A stretch of 64,000 nucleotides of DNA from assembly GCA_018902385.1 (NCBI GenBank), contig JABSSW010000043.1, forward strand, positions 248,001 through 312,000, written 5' to 3'. Of this stretch, positions 1 through 52,585 are shown piece after piece (the first letter of the stretch is position 1; every line of letters starts with the position of its first letter). The position numbers and the translations under genes were made by a program. The notes beneath the pieces were generated by a model. That model saw nothing but the letters and a program-made list of their open reading frames with translations. It was not told the origin of the DNA and ran no database searches. This DNA is from Physcia stellaris (Eukaryota > Ascomycota > Lecanoromycetes > Caliciales > Physciaceae).

Positions 1-64
1 GAAAAACACGCGCGCATTCGATGTTGTTGCAAATTCATTGATTTCGACTTTTCAAAAAACATGC

Positions 65-69
65 GATGT
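65..69. repeat. Target-site duplication, left copy (GATGT)
   Basis: Five bases immediately before the 5' LTR. They are identical to the five bases immediately after the 3' LTR, as expected for a gypsy integrase. Confidence 0.85.
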
Positions 70-239
70 TGTTATGATATGAAATCGATTGTCGACTCAT
101 GTCAGATTATTGAAATTTTGTCTTCAGAATGTTTGTCGACTCTGAAAGACTTTCACAAAAAAATTAACGCATGTATTTTATAATTGACAATTTCGTAATT
201 ATTTACAATTTAACTTCTTTACATTTCATACATTTGACA
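70..239 (+). repeat. 5' LTR (170 bp)
   Basis: Begins TGTTATGATATGA and ends CATTTGACA, so it has TG...CA termini. It aligns without gaps to 7438-7607 with 16 differences, all transitions and no transversions. It is preceded by GATGT at 65-69. Confidence 0.93.
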
Positions 240-835
240 ATTGATAGCATCATCGCATCAATCAATCTTGTTTGACATCATTGATTGTCAGTTTGACATC
301 AACAAATTTGCAATCTGTAATTTGCATCAAAAGATACAAATTTTACTGTACATTTTCGTTCGTCGTTGTGAGTTCGATTTGAGCACGTCATTTATTTGAC
401 GTATTTCATCTCGCTCATCGACTTTCTCATCATTGTACGAGTATTTTCTGTTTTTTGTCATTGTCTCTATTGTCTATCAGAGTCGATTGCAGAAGACTTC
501 TCATGCTAAAAATTTTTTCACAATATCACTGTTAGTCAATTGCAAAAGTCTTTAGCAACACGTTTTTTCTGTTGTCAAAAAAACATTCGCAAACATTTTG
601 ACGTCGTCAATCATCAGCTCGTTCTTCACTATTTTCAGAGACATCGTTCTCATTGCATTCGACATCGACAATTTCGTCAAAAATCATCACAATTACGTCA
701 ATGAATTGTCAAACGAGATCAAATATATTGTCAACGTCATCGTAGTCATCAACTTTCGATCGTCAATCAAATTTCAAACTCGTATTTTCAGAGTCGCGTC
801 AACAGAATTTTCAAATTTTTCGTCGAAATGAGTTT

Positions 836-2730
836 TTGAGCGAAATGTTTTCAACAACGCTATTCGACAATTTCACGAAATCACAATCGAATTCAAAATT
901 ACAATCGATTATCGAAATTTTTTGTCAAAAGACGAAAAAGACAGTTTCGATTCGAATTTCAATACGTTTGTTGAATCGACGAGTCTCATCATTTCAGAAA
1001 AATCACAAATCGACGAAAACGTATCAAGTGTTTCACGTCTCGCTAATCGATTTCGAAACGAAAACGATACATTTGTTGTTGAAAAAAATCAGACTCATAT
1101 TCAAACGCACGTTCGATTGTCAACAAACGAGTCAAAAGTTTTTAGTTACTCATCTATCACTCAATCAAGCACTATCGCTAGTCAATTCGACGAGCAAAAT
1201 GAATCAAACTCGTTCAATACTCGAGAGACTTCTGCGAAGAAAGTCATATACTCATTACTCATAAAATCAAATTCAATAGTTGTTTCAATGAATTCAGTTT
1301 TGCAAATTGTCATTATTGTCGTCGTCAATGTCGCAATCATTCAAACTATCAACGATATTCGAACAGAGATTCGTCAAGAAATACAGCAAATTCAGCAAAA
1401 CAATGATCAATCAAAATCTCTCGAATCTTCTGATTCATCAAATTCATTCGGCGAAAATAACGACGAAAATAACGACGAAAATTCATTTTGACGTTTCGAA
1501 AATCTAAATTTTCTTGATTTCAAATTGTCGACATTCTTTGAGCTCGATCTCATGATCAAAAACGATAAAAATGTTTATTATCGTAACGTTCATCTGTTTT
1601 GTGAAAAAATTCGAGATCTAGTTGCTACTAAAAGTGAAAAACTGATTCGAGTCAATTTCAACATCTGTTTTTTCGACTATGCTTTCATCTGATATATTTC
1701 AAAGTTGAAAATTTTGAGTCGAACTGATTTACGTAGTCTTTTTCTTAAAAATGATTGAATCAAAAAATTTAAATTACGTTTCAAATTTAATCACAATGCG
1801 ATCATCGACGCTTTCGTTTTTGAACGTTATACGTTAATCGACGTTCGAAGTGATCGAAAATCGTCTAGTTACGTACAGCAAATTGTTAACTATGTTATAA
1901 ATGTCAATTTTCAGAACACGCATCAACAACTCATTTGAGTTTGAAAAAATTTTGATTTCAATTTGAAACGTGATATTTCGACGTCAAATGATATTACGTC
2001 GCTTACGAACTTCTTGCATTTGATTGAAAACAAAAAAAAAATATGACAAGAACTCTATACGCGTGATGAAAATCGAAACGATCGTGATCGACGTTTTAAT
2101 AATCGTCAAATCAATAAATTTAATCGACAAAATAGTAATCGTGACGATCATTTATCGTTCGACGACGTCTATGTTTTTCAGTCTCAATATTTCTTTGCAA
2201 ATTGATATTATAATTCGAATTCAATTTATCAAAATCAGAATTTTTAGTCTCGTCAATTTTTCGAAAATTACGCACAACAACGTGCTCAATTCGCAATTGC
2301 TTTGTCAACTGCAAAATAATCATTATTTCTCAAAATCGAAAGCGAATCAAATTCGAATCAGAACTCGAAACAGAAAAACAAATCGAACGTCGAAAGATTT
2401 CAAAAATTCGATAAAACTAAAATCTTTCTAGTTGACGAGAATGACGAGAATGTCGAATCTGAAAAAATCTTTCAAAACAATCAGAATGACGATTCAAACA
2501 ATTATTTCGCATCGTCGAAAAATTTTGTCTATTACGAGTCATCGTCATACAACGAATCGAATGATGAGAATGACATTGTCTATTTCATCTCATCAAAAAT
2601 TTCAATTTCAGAACATTCTCATTGTCGCAAATGTGATGAAATTTTCTCGTTCAACAACAAGTTGCATCAACATATTCGCAAACTTTGTACAATCGATCGT
2701 GAAAACTTTTCGTTATCAATGCAACGTTTG
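836..2730 (+). pseudogene. Degraded gag-like region of the gypsy element
   Basis: Several overlapping open stretches on the + strand are rich in Ser, Asn, Gln and Lys and lack Pro, Gly and Trp. Near the end (about 2620-2690) is a finger of the form C-x2-C ... H-x-H, reading CRKC then LHQHIRKLC. Similar fingers lie at the gag end of many fungal gypsy elements. TGA stops interrupt the frame. The exact gag start cannot be placed. The assignment rests on position between the 5' LTR and the protease/RT region plus the finger. Confidence 0.6.
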
Positions 2731-3249
2731 ACAGACGTAATCGTTGAATTTTTCAAAAGAATCGAAATCAACTCGTCAACAAATGTCTTGATCACAAAAT
2801 CAAATTTGAGAAAATCTTTTTCTATCAAAGTTATCAAAGATTCGTTCACAACAATCGACGCTAACGATTTTATTTGAAAGTTTTTCACAAATTTCATTTT
2901 TAGTGACGATGATGTTGAGAAGTTTTTCGCAAATTCTCTTTCGATCATATTTTCAGACGTCGATTTCAATAAAAACGTTGACATCGATTATGAATTTCGA
3001 GAATGAAAATACGCTCGTGTTTTTGCAGCGTTGTCATTCATTATCGAGTCGAAACATGCGTGTCTCGATACGAATGTCAATATCATTCTCGTCGATCGCG
3101 AATTTTTCAAAAGACAAACATCGAATATATCGATTCGAATCATGACAATTTCAATTTCAATTCGTGATTTTGATACGACACAGCATTGATTTAGCGATTA
3201 CGTCATAATTTTCATCTACTTTTCGAGCAAAAAGAACGAAATTGTCGTC

Positions 3250-6200
3250 AAAACTATGATTACGCGTGAAATTCATTTGATTGATGATTTGAAAGTCAAC
3301 ATGCTTATCGAAAACGATCTTATGAAATCGAAAAAAATCGACATCAATGTGACAAAAAGAATCGCTCACATTGACAGTTGCGATGTCATCGTCGCATTGA
3401 ATGTCAAAATTTCTCGTATTATTGTTCACACATCGATTCATGCACGTAAAACAATCATTGTGTTTTCGCACATTGAGATTGTTTTGTCGATTCATTTCAT
3501 CACTATATTTGCAAATAGAGACTTTCTATTCGAATCGAAAAATTTCAATTTGTCGCTTTATGTTCATCTGACAGATGTCGAGTTCAAGAACATTATTGTC
3601 AGAAACGATAGTGACAAATCTGCTCACATATCACGCAATTGTCGCGTAGAACGAATGATTGAATTAAATTTCTCGAACGCATATATGATAGCAATTGACG
3701 ACGATAATGACGTCGTCGAGCTCGCAATGAGAAAATCTTTCACAAAACACAAAATTAGTTGATTTAAACGTGTCATCGTCGCTGTTTATGTCGTTATTGT
3801 TGTGATCACGTCAATCAGTTTGTCAACTGTCAATTTTTCAGTAACAAATCTGAATTCTGTGATTATTGAAAATTTTTTCTCAATCGACTATATCGTTCAA
3901 ACATCTCTGTCAATATCACAGATTTCTGATGTAACTATGTCAGATGTGTTATTCGCATCGACGTCGTCATTTGCGTCGAAAATCATTTTCAGCAACGACA
4001 TTACAATACATCGATTCAATGACGTCGCAGTACAGATTTTCATTGACATCGTCAAAAAATATTTTGATTTTTGAAAGAAGACAAGTTTCGTTGATTTGTC
4101 GAAAAAAAACTGAATGAAAATATTTTTTAAAACTGACTAAAAAAGTCGAATATTTGACAAAGTCAAAATTTATTCGCTAGACATCAAAGATAAAAAGTTG
4201 ATTGACGCTATTTTCGATAAATTACATGAATTCGACAAGTTTAGTTGAATCGAAAAATTCACTTCTTTCAACTATTTCGTCTTTTGTGTCTGAAAGAACG
4301 TCAACGACGAAAAAAAGAAACGAATAATAATTGACATACGAGAATTAAATGTCATTATTCAGTTTGACGTTTATTCATTTTCATTACAAATTGAAATGAT
4401 TTTCGTCGTTTTCGAATGTCAATATATTATTGTTATTGATTGTTCAACGTTTTTCTATCAGTGACGCGTGCATTTTAAAAATCGACACAAATTTACGATG
4501 ATTAGTCATCGCGATCAGAAATTCTTTAACGTAACGATTATGAAATACAAAAATTCGCTCGTTTACGTACAACGACAAATCGATCGTTTATTTCGATCAC
4601 ATCGTCATTACGTCAAAATATACGTTGACGATATTGTGATTTATTTCAAAATTCTTGACGAACACAAAACTCATTTGCGTTCAATATTTGACATGTTTAA
4701 AATCAATAACATTTCAGTCAAGTCAGAAAAGATTTTCATTGATTATTTCACAGTTCATTTGCTAGAACAAAAGATGAATTTCTTAGAACTGACTACAATT
4801 GAAAAGAAATTGAAGACAATTTTTCGTCTATCGTATTTCAAAACATTACAGATTTTAAAAATTTATTTAAAACTCATTGAGTGATTACGCGATTACGTTT
4901 TTATGTATGTTGACGTCGCGAAATCATTTCAGAAATTCAAAATCGAATTGCTTCGCAATGCTTCGATGACAAACAATGTCAAAAAGATTTTTTCTCGCAT
5001 TATCAGAATTAAAAATTTCATTTCGCGAGAATTCGCGTCGTTTCAAATTTTTCAAACGCTATTGTCAAAATTTTTTTATTTGATACACGTTGACTCGACA
5101 CGTCGAATTTACATCGACTTAGACGTCAACAAAAAATTTGATTTGAATGTCATGATGTATCATGTCAAAGAGTTTGTCAATTGAAATGAAAAAAATTACT
5201 CGTCACGCAAAACAATAAAATCAATATTGTTTTTAAGTCGATTGCTATTTGATGTCGAAATCAGATATTGATTTACAGAATTAAAATTCAACGACATAGT
5301 TTGAATTTTGCGCAAGATTCGTCATTTGTTTGACTTCTTTTTGACAAAGTTTTTCGTAATGTTTATCGATCACGAGACTGCTTTAAAGATAGTTAAACAA
5401 ATCAGCATGACAATCGTCTCAACTGACAAATTTAATTTTCGTTTTGTCAGAACGTTCGATTACATTCAACGTTTCGAGTTGAAAATTCGTCACAAATTTG
5501 ACAAACAGCATATTGTATTCGACGCATTATTCAAATTCGTCAACACTAATATCGACGTCGCATCAATTGACGAGAACGAATTAAATGTTCTTTTCATCAT
5601 TGTTTTCGTTCAGATGAAGAAAGATTTTCGTCGAAAGCTTATTGCAAACTACATTACAAATCTTAATTGAAAAAAGATTTCTGACGTATTGAATAAACAA
5701 ATCACTGAAAACAGTGCTCGTTTTTCTTTTTATCGAGAGAACGATTTTATCTTTCGATCAGATGAAATCACTTCTGACGATCACGCGTTCGAATCTCGTC
5801 GACTGTGCATATTTGCGACAATCATTTCAAACATTCTGACAACAACTCATGACGAAAATCACGTCGAATTTGCACGCTGTTACGAGAAAATAGCGTCATT
5901 TTACTACATACGTGATTTGTCTCGTTATCTACGAGACTTTCTGAAACATTGTTCTAAATGTCAAATATTTCAAACTCGTCGACATCGTTTTTACGACTCA
6001 TTTCAATTCATATTTACGTCGTCAATATCTTTTCACACGATCACTATTGATTTTATATTGATTTTATTTTCGTTTTTTACAACGAAAAAGTTCGACTGTT
6101 TTATGTCTGTCAATTGCAAATACTCGAAACGTATATTAGTGATTTCGAAGAAAATCATTTGAACGACAGTTCAATGAGAACACGCTCTACTAGATCGACT

Positions 6201-6822
6201 TGATACTGTCGATTGAGAATTGTCAAAAGTAATCATCTCGAATCGTGACAAAAAATTTCTTTCCGATATGTGAATCGCGATGTTCACGAAATTAGACGTC
6301 AAATTGCTTTATTTCATCGTTTATCATTCACAAACGAATGACTCATCGAAGCGTATCAATTAAACGCTCGAGATAGCTTTTCGATTTCTAATCAATATTC
6401 TGAAGCATTCGAATCGTTGATTCGAAATTTTGTCACGTTTTCAACGCGATTTCAACAACGCAATAATTAGTGTCGACAAGTTTTTCAACGAAGTCGTTTA
6501 CGACTTCACGTCAATGCAAATTCTGAATCTGTCTTTTTTGCAATCGATGACAAACGATTTATCACTGAAGAAGCGTCGACTGATCATTAAACATGAAATA
6601 ATTGACGTCATTGTTTTCGAACAGATGAACGCTAAATTTCATTACGATCGAAAACATCAATCGCTTTACATGAAGTCGAATGATTACGCTTTTATACAAT
6701 TTCACAAGAAATACAACATATTTTCGACTATCAACAAGAAAATCGATCAGCAATACGTCGATCTCTTTCTGATTATTGAAAAGATGAGTAATTTGATCTA
6801 TCGACTAGCTATATCAAACAAC
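3250..6822 (+). pseudogene. Degraded pol of the gypsy element (protease, RT, RNase H, integrase)
   Basis: At 3256-3500 a frame resembles the protease-like region of fungal gypsy polyproteins (REIHLIDDLKVNMLIENDL). At 4468-4884 lies reverse transcriptase with the catalytic YVDD at 4621-4632. At about 4903-5560 follow the connection and RNase H regions (IYIDLDV, KIRHLFD, FDYIQRFELKIRHK). At 5689-6162 lies the integrase zinc finger, with HDENHV then HCSKCQ. At 6430-6822 lies the integrase C-terminal part (MNAKFHYDRKHQSL ... QQYVDLF). Open blocks are separated by in-frame TGA at positions where the family has tryptophan. Glycine and proline of the family motifs are replaced by Glu/Arg/Asp and Ser/Phe, as expected from GG-to-GA and CC-to-TC changes. 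Confidence 0.88.
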
Positions 6823-7437
6823 TGACGCATAGATTTCATTTTCAATATAATTCAACTGAAAATCTGTTCGACATCTGACGATGATTTCTATCATAAATCA
6901 AAATCGAATCATTCAGATTCAGTGTACGTTGAGAAAGATACGCTCATCGTCAAGTTTTTCGAAATTGAACGTTTTATCAACAAGCGAAAAACTGTCAAAC
7001 GTGAATCTGAATATTTGATGCGTTGAAAAAATTATGATTCAAAACATGACGTCTGACGAAATCTTTCGAAATTAGATAACGTCATGAATTTGATCTGAAA
7101 ATACGAGAATGTCATTGACAAAATTGTCATTTTTTTTGATCGACGAATCGATTCTGTCGTCGTCAACAAATCGCTATCTAAAAAACAAAATTTTGTCGTT
7201 GTTATATCGTCAAAGTCGATGTTGCGAAAATCTTTCGCAGACTCGTCGTCGTCAATTTCTTCAACGTTCGAAGTATTGATTCGAAAATTTGTTACAATTT
7301 CGTCTGAGTTCAGCTCTTTACGACGTTCGAATCGACTAAAAAAAGAAGAATAGAAAAACACGAAAATTTGTGATAGAAAAAAGATTTTGATATCATTGAC
7401 ATCGAGACGATGCGATTTTATTTTGCTTGAAACAAAT

Positions 7438-7607
7438 TGTTATGATATGAGATCGATTGTCGACTCATGTCAAATTATTGAAATTTTGTTTTCAGAGTGT
7501 CTGTCGACTCTGAAAGATTTTCACAAAGAGATTAACGCATGTATCTTATAATTGACAGTTTCGTAACTATTTACAATTCAGTTTTTTTACACTTCATACA
7601 TTTGACA
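7438..7607 (+). repeat. 3' LTR (170 bp)
   Basis: Gap-free copy of the 5' LTR with the same length and the same TG...CA ends, followed by GATGT at 7608-7612. Of the 16 differences from the 5' copy, 15 fall in a CpT context (ApG on the other strand) and one in CpA. Confidence 0.93.
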
Positions 7608-7612
7608 GATGT
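7608..7612. repeat. Target-site duplication, right copy (GATGT)
   Basis: Five bases immediately after the 3' LTR, matching 65-69. The flanking DNA on both sides is AT-rich and CC/GG-free as well, so the element landed in an older degraded repeat. Confidence 0.85.
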
Positions 7613-8560
7613 AAATCATTCACGATCAGATTGAAAATTTGAAAATAATTGATGAAATGAACAAGTCGACATTTTTTGCATCAACAGATTTCGACTTTTT
7701 GACGTGTGATATTCATCGTTTTTATTTCTTGTTATGTTTTTGTTTTTAGTTTTTTCTTTGACGTGTTGTTGAACAAAACGAATGACGAAAATCGAAAAAT
7801 GAATAAAGATGTCACGTGAAATGAACGAACGAATAAGTTTTTCGATCGAATGACGATTTAACAAATGTCAATATGATAATTGTTTCGAATCGTACATAAC
7901 TATTTGACGATTGAAATGTCATTGAAATAATCGTCGTACAAAATTAAATGATCGATTGTCGAATAGATGTAAAGTTGAATTAACATTTTTTAATTTTTCT
8001 GTTTTCAACGCAAAATCGTGTAAATTTTCTTTATTGTCGTTTAATTCATTCGTTGAATTGATGATCGAGTTCGTATGAATTTTTCTCACAATTTTAACGC
8101 GATCGAACGATGAATTCTTTTTACAATCGTTTGTTCATTCGCAAAGTTAATGATTGAATTCGTTGTAAATTTTCTTTACTGTTTTAACGCGATCGATCGA
8201 TGAGTTTTTCTCATTGTCGTTGATTTTCGTGATTCGTATCGTGATCGAACGATGCGATTATGAATGCGAGTTCGCGTACGAAAAAATTCAAATTTTTAAA
8301 AACACAACAATTCACGACTTGTCAGATCGAATTGTTTGTCAAACAATTGCAACATCATTGTTACGAACAACATACGTTAAATTCGAACTTATAATCTGTT
8401 AAATAAACATGAACAATGATTGCATGAATTGCGTGTAATTTCTAAAATACAAACAAATCGAAAATTTTGATGTGTGCGATGTCAAAACATTAAATTCAAT
8501 AAAAACGCATTAGTTTTTCTTTCGTCAGATTATATCAATTGAATTCTTGATTATTTTTTT
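7613..8560. other. AT-rich degraded DNA with imperfect repeats
   Basis: No gene is recognisable. The stretch lacks CC and GG but keeps CT and AG. Two imperfect copies of a TTTTAACGCGATCG-containing unit occur about 90 bp apart (starting near 8091 and 8181). Together with positions 1-64 it is the older sequence into which the gypsy element inserted. Confidence 0.6.
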
Positions 8561-8599
8561 GCGAAAATTGTACTTCTCAATATCGTTTACGATTGTTTT

Positions 8600-9712
8600 A
8601 ATCGACATACAGAAAATCACATACAATCAAAATTTGAAATTAAAAAACATACAATTTCACGAAATAACGAAAATCATAATCAAACAAAATTCGAACAAAA
8701 TTTCAAACGACAACGACATAATCAATAAAATATGAAAATGAATAAATGACATCATCGTATCACATTTGCAACGTATATACAACGTCAATTTGAACGAAAA
8801 TTATTGTTCAAAACATTTTCGAAAATCGATCACGATCGCATTACGTAAATCAAACAAAAAAATCTATTCAATGACGATTTCGTACAAATCAACAATTTTA
8901 TTCAATATTATAAACAAATTCATGAAATTCATATTGATCAAACGAATCAATTTTTTGACGAAAAAACACGATTTGTTGTCACGCACACATTTCGAAATCA
9001 AAAAAATCGTGTTTACGAAACACGCATTACATTACATGATAAAACGTATACATTCGACATGAAATAAAAAATTGATAATCGTGATCATGTTTTTCGACGT
9101 GATGAACGTTTTCGACAATATAATTCGATTAAAATTGTTACACAATTTCAAAATAAAACGTTTAAACGAAAAATTGATACGATATATTGATTTTTTTTTG
9201 TTCAATAAAATGACAATATTGAAAACAAACGAATACGATATCGAATGATTCGAAATATTCATAAAAATTTCACAAAATTCATTTATGTCATCGATTTTTT
9301 TTTTTACAACGCATTTTTATTGAAAATTTTGAAAAAAAAAACATTTCAACGAATGAATTCGTCGACGATATAAAAATGTTAACGAAAAATCACATTTTCG
9401 AAAAATGCAACGATATTATAATCAAAACACACGAAAAAATTTGCGTATCGTGAACATTGAAACACGAAATGAAATTTGCATTTTCAAAATATCAATTCAT
9501 TTATTTCGATCGAAAAAAAAAAACAAACGACATCGAATCGATACGACTTTTTGAATTCAATCAAAAATCAAAACAAACAAAAAAATGAAATATTTGAACG
9601 TCATAATGAACGAAAAATTCAATTGAAAAACACAAATCAATCAAAACAAAACGAAAACATTGAAATTTATAAAAACATTACGCAATTTCGACGACATTAC
9701 ATGAAATGTTAA
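8600..9712 (+). pseudogene. LINE reverse transcriptase remnant
   Basis: Visible motifs include KHFRKSITIALRK, then INKFMKFILIKRINFL, then KKHDLLSRTHFEIKK and TKHALH. After an in-frame TGA comes FFDVMNVFDNI, the place of the family's catalytic Asp motif (DVSGAFDNV-like). These match the order of fungal Tad1-type RTs. Glycine and tryptophan positions are lost through G-to-A changes. It is nonfunctional. Confidence 0.8.
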
Positions 9713-10156
9713 ATTTTCGAAAATGAAACAAATGATGCAAACGATTTTCATTTCACAATTCACATACGCATGTTCGATATAATACACGTCGACGAAAAAA
9801 AAAATCACAACAAAAAAATAACGAAAAAATTAACGAACGTTCAATATCAAGCAAAAAAAATCATAACGAAAACATACAAAACGATTTCGAAAAAAACGTT
9901 CAATATCGAAATCAATTCAATGTTTATGCATTTACGTTTAAACAAATTCATCAATACGTTCGCAATGAAATTGATAACAAATTCGACATACGACACGATT
10001 ATACGCGATCGATTCATTAAAAAATCGAAAAACGTCAATTCATTGAAAAAATTAATGAATAAATTCGAAAAAAAAACGAACATCAAAACACACGATATGA
10101 AAAAAAAATTATTTTTTGTTGTATCGTCATGATGAACATCGTCAATTGCACGTATC

Positions 10157-10501
10157 ATGAAAAACAAAAAAAAAATCGAAAAATATCACAAAATACAATT
10201 AACAACGAATTCGATCAATTACATATACATAAATGAAAACGACATTAACGACAAAATGAATGCAACAACGATATTTTCAAAAACGAAATTTATTACAACG
10301 AAAACATATTTGAAATTCATTACGTTATATACGATTTATTTTGTTGAATTATATGACATCGTTTTAACAATGAATATGCGATTACATTCGTTTTTGAAAT
10401 TTGCAAAAAAATCGAAATTCGTCATATGCATCGACAATCAAACAACAATTCAAACGATACAAAATTCAAAAATCAATTTCGATCAATATTTAATGAAATG
10501 A
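10157..10501 (+). pseudogene. LINE RNase H remnant
   Basis: An open frame contains YFVELYDIVLTMNM followed by CIDNQTTIQTIQNSK and QYLMK. This matches the YAAEL...TDNQAAI...QYL spacing of LINE RNase H domains. The final part runs into stops at 10,499 and beyond. Confidence 0.78.
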
Positions 10502-10777
10502 ATAATTTGATTGATTAACGAATTGCGAAACAAATATATTGAAATGAAATTGCATTAAATTTCGATTCATATCGATATCGAAAACAACGAACAAACAAAC
10601 GTTGCGATCAAACAAATCACGAAATGAAAATTGAAAAAACGAAAAAAAAAATGAATATCGATCACAAAACACAACAAACGAACGTGCAAATGTTGAAAAA
10701 CGTCGTTAAAATCGTGATAAATAAATCGATAAAACAACAATGAAATCAAAAATGAAAAAATTGCAATAAAAAAAAAT

Positions 10778-11014
10778 TTGTACAAAATTATATCGAAATT
10801 CAATAAAACAATATTGCGATTACACGAAAAATTCATAAAAAAATTCAACGTCATAACAATACAATTTCGCACGATCAAAATAAAATTAAAAACGTTTTTA
10901 TACAACAAAAAACAAATCGAAAATTTCATGTATTTATGCATGTGTAACAAACAAACGATCAAACACGTGCTTTTCGAATGCAAAAAATTGAAAAAAATTC
11001 GCAAAAATTTATGA
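10778..11014 (+). pseudogene. LINE C-terminal Cys/His motif remnant
   Basis: An open frame reads CMCNKQTIKHVLFECKKL, the C-x-C ... H-x4-C motif at the C-terminal end of Tad1-like ORF2 proteins. It lies in the expected position after RNase H. This supports the LINE assignment and the + orientation. Confidence 0.75.
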
Positions 11015-11403
11015 ATTGACGAAATTAAAAAAACGAAATGAAAAAAAATAAAATTGATAAACGTATTGATCAATTCGATCAATTTGACAAAAACGACAAA
11101 ATTTATCGAAAAATTCGAATTCATTGATTATTTACGAATTTCAATTGCGAACGACGAAAAATAAAAATTGCAAAAAAAATGCATTAAATTGAAAATTTTC
11201 GTACAAAATAAAAATGAAAAAAAATTATGAAAATAAAAATGTTTGAAATGATTTGTTCGAATAAAAAAACGAAACATCAAAAACAAATAATTCTGTATAA
11301 AATCAAAAAATTTTTAGAAAATGATTGACTCGATTGTTTTTAGTCGCATAACGAATTCTTAAAATCGATTTCGAATGCTTAATGAATCAATCAATCAATC
11401 AAA

Positions 11404-11505
11404 CCACTTCCAGGTGACTACGATTACTCGGCGGAGCAGTGGGACTACAGGGGGGTCAAAAAGGACTTCCGGAACATGCTCCCCCGCGATTATCTTTGGC
11501 GGTAG
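11404..11505 (+). pseudogene. Orphan C-terminal coding tail next to the LINE
   Basis: Directly after the LINE tail, 33 codons are open and end at TAG (11,503-11,505). The translation starts PLPGDYDYSAEQWDYRG and ends MLPRDYLWR. It has Trp, Gly and Pro and normal base use, unlike everything to its left. It looks like the 3' end of a real gene whose upstream part is replaced or separated by the LINE. I do not recognise the family. Confidence 0.45.
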
Positions 11506-14500
11506 CCTAAAGGCTGCCTTTACAACAGGCAGTTAGCCAAGGGCGCCTACCGCTCAACAGCAAGGATTTGGTATACTCTGACTTCGTGGATGCTACTGCA
11601 AGGTGCTTTGTGCGTTATGCAGCATTGGTATATTGAATAAGATAATCGTAGCTTGCATCTCATGTAGCTCAACAGTTGAGTTCTTGTTAATGTTGCAGGT
11701 AGATTGGCATTTGCCTTGATTTCCCCGTATCGTGAAGCTGTTGGGTTGTGCCTAACAGGGCAAGCGCAGCGGGTCGTGCCGATCCTTGAACGAATTTGCT
11801 CCTTCAAATGATCTTGCTTAGTCATATGATCCAGACTTCAGTTGCCTCGCTTGTACCGTACGATGGTGTAACCTAACTGATGGACTACCACATTCGACAT
11901 ACCTTTCGTGAAATTTCCGAAGCTCAAACTACGACCATTTCACCAGCCTTTGAACGACCCTCTACCTCTTCACCAGAACTCGAAACACCCAAGTCCTCAA
12001 AACCCCTTTTCAGAAACGTACCTACTTCGTCGGCGAACTAGCCGCTCTCTTTTATCTATTCCATCGCCTTGATGTTGAGTTAGGAAGCCGTCAAGGTACG
12101 TTATATAACAATTACTCTAAGACTTCACGGGCTTGCTCTTCTTGCATGGTTTTTTCTCTCATCCTGAGCTCATCTCGTCTATAACAACAGCTAGTTAAAC
12201 AAGAAAGAGATAAGCTATATCAGCCATGAATCCAATTACGAGCTTACTACATTCTCTCTTCAGTTCTCTGTGGGCACCAAGTCCAAGTCAGCTGAACTTT
12301 CCAGTGTTTCATCACTTACTCCATACTCTACGCTTCAATCCACGGTCCGGATTCTGAAGATCTCAACAGTGCCCTCTGTGGTCCGTTTGTTCCCGATCAA
12401 GACGTCGACCACTTCTACAGTATGACTGAGACAGAACCTGGAACTCTCTGCTCTGAAACGGAAACAGTGGAGACGAGTGGGAGACTACCCTCTTGTTCGA
12501 GGTTCTAAACTAGTTTGTTCTCTCATATTCACGACCTTTCGTATTGAAACTTTACGAAGCCACTCACCGTGCAGAAAGACTCACTCGGACCTGCCCACCA
12601 CCGTCAGAGCAGCCATACTTTTCATAGGATGCATCAAGAGACACAGTAGTGGGATCCAGCCTGAAGATATTTCGTCTATTGAGTTCAACACAGAGTCCAC
12701 TGTTGGCGACCGCTCCTTCTATCGGCACTATGCTGACAAGCAGATCAGCTCGCGAGAGTCCCCGAGCATCAGCGTTCAAATACCTGCATGACGGGAAAAA
12801 CGCCTGAGCAACAATTGGGGCCATGATACAATCATGCTTTCAAGCATCAGCAATTGGTCGCAGCTGTAAATGCATTTGCAATGAATCTGGAGATTTATGT
12901 CGGAAGCTCTTGGACTGTCTGCTGCTCGTCTACTCCCTCAATTCGAGGACACTACCTCATCCCGAGACCAGAAAAGACAGATAAGATCATCAGTCTGCGC
13001 AAGAGGATGATTCGATTGCGCATGATGGCAGTCGCGCCTCTACATCTGGATTGCCTGAAGGGACTGTTCTTATCTCAGGACTTTCGTGGGTCGCCAGCTC
13101 TTCATCGATTGATAAGTTTTTTTTGTCTGACTGTACTAGCGGTGAGATTGAGTCTCGAAGCAAGATAACCGCTGCTGCTATGGTAAATACGGAGTCACGG
13201 GTATAGCAGAGCACAGAGGCTAAAAACATTCCTATCTGAGGGTCAGAATCTGCTGCTCGTCTACTTAATAATACCGAGAAAGGAACAGATTGAGAAAATG
13301 AACGGCGCCTCTAATATGCTACCAGACCACGACATTCCCGGATACTTTCCAATATCCGCAACGAAGCATCAGAGATTACCGTCTTTCTCCGGAGCCTCGT
13401 TCGGCTTGACTCCTTGGCAAATTTGAAATCAGCCAAAGCATGTCTTCGAAGATCCCGCAAAGATGACTAAACATGGCGAAGCCGGTAAAGTGACTTTGCG
13501 GCAATGATAGCAAGCTGTACTGGAAGAGATGCAAAGTCAAAATCTTGCTATTCCGGAAAAGAAATCTGAAAATCCGAGAAATGTCTCGAAGCTGCTAAGA
13601 CACGAGCTTGCTACAACCCAAGTGGCAACTAGTCTTCTGAAGCACGCTTGCACTGGTGCACCGTCTCGAGCTTCCAAACACCAAGTCATCGCCTCCGCTG
13701 TCCAGATTACTCAAAAGTGGAAGTCGCCTAAAAGTTCGAAGCTGCCAGGAAATCTCAAAAGCTTTCTACAGCTTAGGGACAATGAGTGTGACGGGGAACA
13801 CTTGTACAGTCTCGAGCTAGCGAACTCCCAGACACCAAATTACCGCCTCCGTTGGCCACTACCATCGTCTGGTTAAGCCATTACACAGCTAGATATGGAT
13901 TTTACGTCTTAAGTCCATATTTCGCTTGGAGTCTAGCGTTTCTGAGACAACCACATTACTTTGACCGGCAGTGTACCCAATTTCACTACAGTTTTGTGAA
14001 TTATCAAATTCTTCTACCTTCAGACACTTGATCAATCGCAATCTTAGCAGCATCCTCGGGATAAAGGACTGGCTGGCAATTTCAAAACAGGTTGACTATC
14101 CCAAAGTCGCCGAACTCTTGGGTTTCAAGACGCCTGTTGCCGCTACCGCTTCTTGGTTCTGAATCAAAAAGAAGATCAGAAGTTAACGTCTCGCATAACG
14201 TCGAAACGGGACCTTCATTTCAACTTCAAGGCGGCTGACGGTCCAAATCTAAAGCAGATATAGACACCGAAGAGGCCGACAATGCCAGAGAGCAAGGCGA
14301 GTCAAAGTCTACCAAAGAGCGTTGTCACACGGTTGATTGACCAGCTACCTATTTGCTATGCTAGTACGGAGTACAACGCTATAGATACGTCATGTACATC
14401 CCATGAGCTGCTAGAGACTGGCTTACATTTGGAAGGCACCCTCTGAAAAATGAGCCATGCCAGCCCGTGGGATAGTAGCAGTCTACCCCCTATATAGTCG

Positions 14501-15047
14501 AAAACCCAAGCATTCATTTCAACAACGAATTCCTCTTCAAGCTTATAAGATGGGCTCCGCGCCTCGGACAAGATTCGGTGTATCTTCATCTACACTCTCC
14601 CTGACCAACCACGCTGCAAGGACCCCAGGACACCAAAATCGGCCAAACGACATCCCCAGCAACTCGATTATCCTCGTCGCATCCGAACCAGGCTACCAGC
14701 TACCGGGAGAATGATGTTACCTACGTGAAAGAACAATGCCTTCAAGACGGCTCCGTTTAAACACAAAGCCAGGATGTTGAGAAGGGTAAATCGCGTCCTG
14801 GATGCGTGGCGACATTTCGAATTTCTGCTCTTAAGACGTGATCAATGAATACTATAAAGCAGTTAGCTGTGACCGTTTTCGACAGGCACGCATCCTAGGT
14901 GGCTTAGCGACCTCCATATCACACATATTCAGCTCACCTAGCCACCTAAATACCCCTTATCCACGACAGGTATTCCCTCACGATGAATCTCCTCATGGTT
15001 CCCTACCCTCTCTAGTCACATCCGTGACAGCTTCAGCCATCGAAATA
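11506..15047. other. Gene-poor stretch, no supportable gene
   Basis: Base composition is normal for the organism. Only short open frames occur on either strand (for example 12,477-12,791 and 13,529-13,876), without recognisable domains or a convincing exon chain. It may hold decayed genes, but nothing can be named. Confidence 0.5.
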
Positions 15048-15257
15048 CCTCCTCCTCCTCCTCCTCCTCCTCCTCCTCCTCCTCCCCTCCTCCTCCTCCC
15101 TCCTCCTCCTCCTCCTCCTCCTCCTCCTCCTCCTCCTCCTCCTCCTCCTCCTCCTCCTCCTCCCTCCCTCCTCCTCCTCCTCCTCCTCCTCCTCCTCCTC
15201 CCTCCTCCTCCTCCTCCTCCTTCTCCTCCTCCGCCTCCTCCTCCTCCTCCTTCTCCG
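15048..15257. repeat. (TCC/CTC)n microsatellite
   Basis: About 210 bp of near-pure CCT/CTC repeat, with a few single-base interruptions that shift the phase. The + strand is all pyrimidine and the complement is (GGA)n. It creates artificial poly-Pro, poly-Leu, poly-Gly and poly-Arg frames. A C-rich low-complexity stretch follows to about 15,470. Confidence 0.95.
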
Positions 15258-16121
15258 CACCTCCTCATCCTCCCCCTCCCTCCACTCCCACTCCCAACAC
15301 CTCCAAACCCAACAAAGATCCCATCACCTCCCATCCACAACCCCTCTCCACAATCACAATCACCCCCAACCTCCCTCCCCACCGCAAACCCCCTCTCAGC
15401 CCCATCCCCATCCCCAACCACCCCTCTCCCCCTCCCTTCCGCGACTCTGCCTCCCCCAGCGCCTGTATTTACAAAGACCAACTACCTCAAGCTACGGAAG
15501 AGATCTCCATGACTAAATGCAGAGCTCTTGTGAATCTGTAACGTTTCCAGAGAGGGGTGGGGGGAGATGCGTACGTATATTGGATCTCCCGTCGCGGATG
15601 GAGGGGGCTGGGGAAGGCATGGTGTTAGCGTCTTTAAGTACGTCAGTCCGTCAGGGAATTGGGCTTGTGGCAGAGAGAGCCTTCCTTCCTTCCTTCCTTC
15701 CTTCCTTCCTTCCTTCCTGACTGAATGGGGTGGGTAAGCTCGTCGTTCGGGGCATGAGGTGACTACTCAGGCATCAAGGCGTATATAGCAGACATACGCA
15801 ATAGTATTCGTGATAAATGTGTATCGTACCCCGACCCTTGAACGAAACACACCATGAGTGGGTTATTTCCTTCATAGCAAGACCAAGTAGGGCCGATAGA
15901 TAGAAACGAAATGCTTCACTCACTCTGTGCCAGGTCAAGGGATACCTACGGCTGGAGCCAGTAACTGTCTACTTCGTTGTTATCGATAATTATGTGGCAC
16001 AGAAAAGAGTATTATGTACATGCAAGACGCCGCATGCAGATATCGTACCGGTCCCAAAATCTCACCCATCATCTCATGCCTGGTTCCCAGAGCACCATTT
16101 TTATGTCATGTAACTATCATC
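15258..16121. other. Intergenic stretch with low-complexity C-rich DNA
   Basis: C-rich sequence continues to about 15,470, followed by ordinary sequence and the TTCC tract. No gene is recognised. The end of the GID5-like gene lies at 16,122, so the last part is probably its 3' UTR. Confidence 0.5.
15681..15718. repeat. (TTCC)n microsatellite
   Basis: About nine consecutive copies of CTTC/TTCC, flanked by unique sequence. Confidence 0.95.
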
Positions 16122-51296: not shown

Positions 51297-52585
51297 ATGA
51301 CTGCGCTCTCTGCCGTGGAAGATGTGGCACTACCCGCGGCCACAAGCTGCAGCGACGAGTTTTCCTCGTCACAGTCGGGGCACCTCGTCGCGTTACGCAC
51401 AAAAGCCGAAGTCGCCGCCTCTTTCACGACCACAGACGCTTATATGACAGAGATACCCCAGAAGTCCGCAAGTAGAGCCCTGAAGTGTGTGAATAAGGTA
51501 GGTTTTTAGTGAAGACACTGATCTAGGATGTCAGCGCTATTGATCAAGCTCTTCGATGCCGAGATCCGGTGAACCTGCAACACCTACGACGTTTCGTCAA
51601 GCCTGCCTACCTTCCTACCCACCTAAGGACCCCCAAACAGCAACCTGTATCAGATAAGCACTTGGTAGACAGGACCAATGCAATAGAAGAAGCAGAAACG
51701 CTTTTCTTCCTGATAGGTGCCGAGTCATCGTTGTCAATCGAAGACATAACCACCCTACTTGCATCTATCATTCATCCGTTGCCTATCCTACAGAGCGTCA
51801 CGGTCCCTCTTCTTCCACCTACTTCTGCGGAGCAAGCCGAAAAGTGGAGCCGACAATACTGGCCTACGGTCTACAAAAAGACTAATCCATTCGGACCGCA
51901 CCCAAGTATAGTTGCACGAGCAGAAGAAGAGATAAGGCATGAGGTAGGATATTATATGGGCCTTGCAACAAGCGCAGGCGAGGCAGTTGCAAGAGCCCTG
52001 ATAGGGAGAAGCATTGGCGCTGTAGTGGTCGACCGACATTCTACTCAAGGTTCCAAATTGGTCGCTTTAGCCGGCGATGGAAGGTGGAATACGGCCTCTA
52101 CCGTTGCGAAATCGGATGAAGATAATGTACTAGGGCATGCCGTGATGAGAGTTATAGGCCTTGTAGCTCGAAAAAGGCAAGATCTGCTGAAAGAATCTTC
52201 TGGAGAGCCAGTGCAAGAGTCTTCGGCAGTCTTCGGCGATGAACCTATCACAGAACTCGAACGCAACGTGTATGCAAGTGCATCAATCCAATCGGGCGGA
52301 TACCTTTGCCTTGATCTTGAGATATATCTAACGCATGAGCCATGTGTAATGTGCTCCATGGCCATTCTACACTCCAGATTCGGAAGGGTTATATTTCAGA
52401 AGCAAATGCCCAACACCGGAGGCTTGATATCAGAAGTAGGCGACATGGGCGGTGAAAAGAAAACGACCAATCCTAGCTATGGCTTGTTCTGGAGGCCTGA
52501 GCTCAATTGGAAACTTTTGGCCTGGCAGTGGGTTCTCGACCAAGCTTCTCCTTCTTTAACGATTGCTACGGACATACACGCATGA
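51297..52585 (+). CDS. TAD3: tRNA-specific adenosine-34 deaminase subunit Tad3
   Basis: Structural partner of Tad2 in the heterodimer that converts A34 to inosine in tRNA anticodons. Exon 1 starts at the ATG 51,297 (MTALSAVEDVAL, then TTDAYMTEIPQKSAS). Exon 2 starts at 51,527 (DVSAIDQALRC, VNLQHLRRFVKPAYLP) and runs to 52,585. The deaminase fold shows LGHAVMRVIG in place of the catalytic HAE, so the Glu is replaced by Val. It also shows CLDLEIYLTHEPCVMCSMAI and LHSRFGRVIF. Loss of the Glu is normal for the non-catalytic Tad3. Two in-phase donors are possible, 51,498 (29-nt intron) or 51,489 (38-nt intron), both very short. About 410 aa either way. Confidence 0.87.

Follow-up and report, generated by a model that had tools for sequence, protein, structure and literature searches.

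CpY-targeted hypermutation of repeats in the lichen-forming ascomycete Physcia stellaris

Repeat-induced point mutation (RIP) of the Neurospora type turns C into T on both strands of repeated DNA, with sharp edges, to degrees that differ between copies and in the company of RID-class and DIM-2-like genes, and it acts mainly on CpA, which becomes TpA. In the portions of the literature drawn on here, this preference recurs: a screen published in 2025, covering 1,239 species of fungi, describes it as common to RIP-like defenses (PMC12543289), and in Botrytis, Sclerotinia, Magnaporthe, and Anisogramma, where CpT is an extra or the main target, CpT goes together with CpA (PMC4352252, PMC10998396). 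The RIP-like C-to-T mutation borne by repeats of Microbotryum has a non-CpA context, namely CpG (PMC4352252), and CpC and GpG are depleted in the repeats of S. nodorum, but CpA is dominant there and only TpA is increased (PMC2621366). The RIPCAL (PMC2621366), ten-genome (PMC4352252), Ascomycota (PMC7882544), and 1,239-species (PMC12543289) surveys deal, in those portions, with CpA, CpT, and CpG contexts and do not describe CpC as a lead target, and the word CpC is absent from the main texts of two of the papers cited above (PMC4352252, PMC10998396). A literature search confined to open-licence papers brought up no report that we recognized as CpC-led RIP. Here we describe a block of 11,402 nucleotides at the start of a 64,000-nucleotide stretch of the genome of Physcia stellaris, a lichen-forming ascomycete (contig JABSSW010000043.1, positions 248,001 to 312,000 of the forward strand; hereafter the window), which holds a Ty3-type long terminal repeat (LTR) retrotransposon and a second, older element, and from which C followed by a pyrimidine (CpY) has been largely lost while CpA and CpG are spared.

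The initial annotation of the window, made from its letters alone, had noted a single GG and a single CC in this block amid plentiful CpG and CpA, and the exact dinucleotide count agrees: positions 1 to 11,402 contain one GG (position 1450) and one CC (position 6263), with observed/expected ratios of 0.005 and 0.003 versus 2.74 for CpG and 1.25 for CpA, and the flank from 11,403 to 64,000 contains 3212 GG and 3105 CC. When C/(C+T) is tabulated by the next base, the values before C, T, A, and G are 0.002, 0.19, 0.58, and 0.49 in positions 1–7500, 0, 0.013, 0.51, and 0.48 in positions 8501–11,330, and 0.45, 0.51, 0.62, and 0.44 in the flank; C has therefore disappeared or is disappearing in front of pyrimidines but persists in front of purines. 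The preference for CpC claimed at the outset stands, but CpC is not the only target, CpT (0.188 and 0.013 in the two parts of the block versus 0.506 in the flank) being a second one; CpT/ApG is depleted in the block as well and is near zero in 8501–11,330. A CC at 11,404 and a GG at 11,413 place the edge to normal DNA of ~50% G+C (11,402–11,404) at the single-base level. C/(C+T) before C is 34/53 in 11,403–11,603, 47/111 in 11,603–12,103, and 85/257 in 12,103–13,103, against 5738/12,697 in the reference flank (16,000–64,000), and no clear gradient is seen in the first 1.7 kb; the last of the three values (0.33) lies under the flank average, yet away from the edge.

The direction and the context of the mutations were read from a copy of the Ty3-type element with normal composition, L018 on contig C11, to which the window aligns over positions 276–7607 of the forward strand (7325 aligned bases). 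Relative to this copy, C has become T at 934 of 999 CpC and 571 of 997 CpT but at only 28 of 963 CpA and 5 of 920 CpG, and the 1545 C-to-T or G-to-A changes are accompanied by 20 reverse transitions and 24 transversions. No strand is preferred over the whole element (537/573 CpC on the plus and 397/426 on the minus strand). Among the 65 first bases of CpC that have not turned into T, 50 lie inside CCC, as expected if the middle C often changed first; the mutated fraction is.675 for CCC,.99 for CCA,.99 for CCG, and.97 for CCT. The content of CC and GG in L018 is normal, which leads us to reject the alternative, raised in the initial annotation, that copies of these elements are naturally free of these dinucleotides. 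An error of assembly or base calling might be thought of in view of the Nanopore reads from which the published assembly started (PMC7513301), but it is, like the natural absence of CC/GG, hardly conceivable and is rejected, given that unmutated copies with normal CC/GG stand in the same assembly, that two rounds of Pilon with Illumina reads were applied (PMC7513301), and that TGA is in excess in the frames of 150 reverse-transcriptase matches, as described below.

The base on the 5′ side has no effect. At CpC the mutated fraction is.929 after A,.928 after C,.945 after G, and.933 after T, and TCA (4/234) and TCG (3/226) are spared. An AID/APOBEC-like deaminase or UV damage, to which lichens are exposed under the sun, would also give C-to-T changes, but APOBEC-type deaminases and UV read the 5′ base, and both were set aside as very improbable on the flat 5′ context.

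The same spectrum appears in a second family, for which 38 copies were listed and the five best-scoring mutated ones were compared with an unmutated reference, L034. In the same copy order, CpC is mutated at 83/107, 96/109, 102/109, 104/108, and 99/108 (.78–.96) and CpT at 57/136, 70/134, 94/139, 106/138, and 100/138 (.42–.77), as against 2–10 of 131–133 CpA (.02–.08) and 1–4 of 106 CpG (.01–.04), with 1–5 transversions per kb. By a coarse fit, the rate at CpC is 2.5–5 times that at CpT, and CpA lies far below the two. As a control, L034 (contig C5) was compared with L035 (contig C12), an unmutated pair that shares 95% identity across 3.5 kb: one way, the differences fall on 18/472 CpC, 17/437 CpT, 14/451 CpA, and 8/444 CpG, the other way on 23/488, 20/432, 17/445, and 14/459, respectively, with 40 transversions. 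It seems that two lineages of this element have either stayed free of mutation or arrived recently; many of their differences lie at distances divisible by three, as coding selection would produce. The RIP-like cytosine mutator of repeats proposed at first, which prefers CpC and spares CpA, is thereby supported by comparison with unmutated copies from two families of this genome; the C-to-T direction, the dependence on the 3′ but not the 5′ neighbor, and the sharp edge are shown.

Hits at CpT are nearly independent in nine of the ten pairs among the five copies (phi.06–.22), and the process therefore mostly struck the copies separately. In one of the five, L047, a 300-bp tract (columns 600–900) has CpY mutated at 2/46 on one strand and 29/38 on the other, and the tract is missing from its sister copy L048. 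It was spotted first and tested afterward, and scans of the ten strand-copy combinations gave one at p 0.001 (L047) and another, the minus strand of L049, at 0.046; as a single case, this suggests that the process works on one strand at a time, tract by tract. These data bear on passive loss, by which repeats methylated at CpC and CpT would decay through slow deamination with no active mutator. Such decay might also yield C-to-T changes that affect both strands and depend on the 3′ neighbor, but we regard it as improbable in that CpC is at or close to saturation with just 1–5 transversions per kb, intermediate and wholly unmutated copies coexist, and the strand-specific tract speaks against it.

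The genome analyzed comprises 43.97 Mb in 147 contigs; the published assembly, from ascospore-grown cultures sequenced by Nanopore and polished twice with Illumina reads, has 46.57 Mb in 184 scaffolds with 43.3% G+C, and RIP is not discussed in the portion of that paper drawn on (PMC7513301). Besides the window, 17 other 10-kb loci were sampled, non-randomly, 16 of them because they are related to a single element and one (L032) because it neighbors the window. Together with the window they include 171 stretches of 1 kb under 38% G+C, and in 167 of these C/(C+T) before C is below 0.1; the remaining four appear, from their neighbors, to straddle an edge, and edges at these other loci are defined at the 1-kb level. 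CpA-type depletion, the mark of ordinary RIP that would have spoken against the first proposal if found in the genome's repeats, is seen in none of the 171 (CpA below 0.4 in 0/171, CpG below 0.35 in 0/171). Their mean is 28% G+C, and from this value, the 43.3% of the whole, and the ~50% of the flank, we estimate that the purged share of the genome may be around 30%. Strong RIP has been described in the lichen Cladonia, with a peak near 16% G+C and, in the portion drawn on, no statement of its context (PMC12542154); the comparison with 21.5% for the lowest purged kilobase and the 28% mean found here hints at another context there.

Twelve reverse-transcriptase (RT) loci were cut out, of which four are unmutated and eight purged, including L038, which is so only partly (0.146 before C), and the RT-domain locus for which no second copy was found is unmutated. 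Among 527 candidate RT matches, 150 were scored with stops counted by hand, and they contain 250 TGA, 33 TAA, and 3 TAG, with ten matches free of stops. In a simulation on four unmutated frames, mutation of all CpY gave TGA stops only and mutation of all CpA gave TAA and TAG only, so the excess of TGA is what would be expected from the change of GG into GA and not from an attack on CpA. A scan of viral_contigs for relatives of the second family found none. The unmutated copies in two families and the unmutated RT locus without a second copy fit a process that would require both repetition and time.

Compared with the described systems, the process shares with Neurospora-type RIP the conversion of C:G to T:A on both strands, the confinement to repeats with sharp edges (in a non-random sample), the grading between copies, and the presence of a RID homolog along with a DIM-2-like gene. 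It is unlike classical RIP in that CpC and CpT are hit and CpA, whose preference was looked for directly, is spared in both families, and for this reason it is not filed as such. The methylation without mutation known as MIP in Ascobolus also differs, because the mutations here are fixed. The role of CpT recalls Botrytis, Sclerotinia, Magnaporthe, and Anisogramma, but here CpC leads; and the target of Microbotryum, CpG, is here the most protected dinucleotide. It works like RIP, yet is a new variant, a CpY-targeted hypermutation of repeats. The usual indices do not register it: the block has a TpA/ApT of 0.434 and a (CpA+TpG)/(ApC+GpT) of 1.226, which, by the RIPCAL thresholds of ≥0.89 and ≤1.03 (PMC2621366), call it unmutated, and the corresponding values of the unmutated L018 are 0.903 and 1.112. 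Such defenses may therefore have gone unnoticed elsewhere. A genome that breaks the CpA rule, with 934 of 999 CpC changed in one element, means that the target base is evolvable; as a side effect, the mutated repeats retain a high density of CpG, and their frames are broken by TGA rather than by TAA or TAG.

As a mechanism, we propose that both retrotransposons were mutated by a RIP-type, repeat-directed genome defense with a CpY target, in which C would turn into T on both strands rapidly and to saturation when the next base is C, and about three times more slowly when it is T, whereas CpA and CpG would hardly be affected. The change would proceed by deamination coupled to methylation and might be timed to the sexual stage. 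The actor is likely a cytosine-5 methyltransferase of the RID class whose choice of site depends on the 3′ neighbor. The search for RID/Masc1 and DIM-2 homologs called for by the initial annotation returned three genes with PF00145, on contigs C3, C5, and C6. The C3 gene carries PF00145 and DUF7893, with a BAH match below the cut-off, and is presumably DIM-2-like, judged from its domains and motifs. The C5 protein, which is 100% identical to a Physcia stellaris protein, is RID-like and groups with the general RID clade of lichens. The C6 protein is an extra RID-class paralog with PF00145 and the PCQ, EET, QxRRR, and GNAVPP motifs it has in common with DmtA, Masc1, and RID, and with no BAH domain. 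Of the two kinds of enzyme first suggested, a divergent RID-type methyltransferase remains plausible, with C6 as a candidate, and a deaminase is unlikely in view of the flat 5′ neighbor.

In a tree computed quickly from the two queries and 58 of the 238 proteins retrieved, which were chosen by hand among the matches listed and include long branches, the C6 protein falls into a clade of 13 rows (SH-aLRT 100), whose only other named member is from Heterodermia (Physciaceae) and which sits inside a group of 24 rows with eurotiomycete DmtA. Among the sequences surveyed, no counterpart of the C6 paralog was noticed in Xanthoria, Usnea, Lasallia, or Cladonia, for which the search was not complete. 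Another second RID-class paralog, in three Teloschistales lichens (P0045, P0062, and P0066), groups elsewhere in the tree. When eight members of the C6 clade were compared by column with 18 other RIDs, the stretch after PPCQ, in which the latter keep T, D, and N (as in AHT...DD..N), was found to read AQ..KP.DFEDK or close to it in the former: the D of column 1373 and the N of column 1376 are F and K in 8/8, and the T of column 1367 differs in 5/8. This stretch aligns with the residues that follow PPCQ in DNMT1, which form a DNA-contacting loop. The spliced C6 model used in the tree and the alignment has 508 amino acids, and the acceptor chosen for its second intron omits five residues; when the acceptor is moved 15 bases upstream, the protein has 513 amino acids and agrees better with Heterodermia, so that the gap at column 1589 is an artifact of the shorter model, and the stretch after PCQ is untouched by this. 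Because C6 has lost residues invariant in the 18 RIDs compared and C5 keeps them, C6 is the best single candidate for the actor, a choice that we hold with somewhat less than even confidence. Tentatively, then, a second RID-class enzyme, remodeled in the stretch that follows its catalytic cysteine, could have shifted its target from CpA to C before a pyrimidine and taken over the mutation of repeats genome-wide. If true, one loop change would turn the specificity of RIP into the opposite of the known rule. With two paralogs in one genome whose sequences diverge over a short segment following PCQ, site choice by RID-class enzymes becomes testable.

The same RIP-type process might instead be carried out by the C5 RID or the C3 DIM-2-like enzyme with a changed specificity, C6 being irrelevant, a possibility that we consider unlikely though well worth weighing and whose C5 part overlaps with the favored RID-class actor. 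Both genes are present with PF00145 domains, C5 belongs to the general lichen RID clade with the columns that C6 has lost, and the sparing of CpA though the C5 enzyme looks intact would mean that C5 is silent or itself changed. However, the C5 enzyme is unaltered at those columns of the catalytic domain in which the 18 other RIDs do not vary, and in the papers drawn on, species with RID and DIM-2 mutate mainly CpA, with CpT or CpG as an extra and in some the main target.

Several observations weigh against a CpY-targeted, homology-dependent defense acting through C6. All three genes, the two of the RID class and the DIM-2-like one, appear intact, which leaves the actor unsettled, and a further column, F in all others, is L in 8/8 of the C6 clade, so the stretch after PCQ is not the sole candidate determinant. 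Dependence on homology is inferred from the confinement to repeats and one RT locus, and the existence of two unmutated copies that are 95% identical requires recent arrival or escape. The differences between these copies, L034 and L035, lean slightly to CpY (78/1829 versus 53/1799 for CpA and CpG, both directions), but the lean is slight and nothing like that of the mutated copies. Three of the nine nearly independent pairs have a Fisher p of ~0.02, and L047 and L048, which have a common history, have most CpT hits in common (phi.66). Finally, the C/T differences left between the second element of the window and its relative L030, counted where the neighbor is unchanged, are not CpY-led (52 CpA, 44 CpT, 17 CpG, and 4 CpC), as expected after saturation, because CpY is almost exhausted in both.

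The Ty3-type (chromodomain) element occupies positions 65–7612 on the forward strand, bounded by a checked 5-bp target duplication, GATGT, at 65–69 and 7608–7612. Its LTRs (TG...CA), each 170 bp with checked ends, lie at 70–239 (5′) and 7438–7607 (3′); the 171-nucleotide repeat at 69–239 is 91% identical to 7437–7607, and the LTR pair differs at 16 sites, 15 of them C/T at CpT and one at CpA, with no transversion. An integrase zinc-binding domain was matched by Pfam at 5671–6159 of the window, and RT, RNase H, integrase zinc-binding, and chromodomain matches were found in L018. A fully purged stretch (L018:8001–10000) lies within ~1 kb of the end of that unmutated LTR copy. The second element runs on the forward strand from 8397, as far as related copies align, to 11,402, where the composition changes; L030 matches it at 93% over 8840–11,401 and L032 over 8397–8583. 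A Pfam scan of its frames gave no match, but LINE-type RT motifs are visible by eye when the frame is read through TGA, and the element, which has AATC repeats at its 3′ end, is probably a non-LTR retrotransposon. In the flank, the kilobase at 15,001–16,000 has a strong pyrimidine bias (176 CC versus 47 GG), and an open reading frame at 51,527–52,585 on the forward strand carries a tRNA-deaminase-type motif, HEPCVMC; we take it to be Tad3-like, a housekeeping gene that is not likely to have a role as a DNA mutator.

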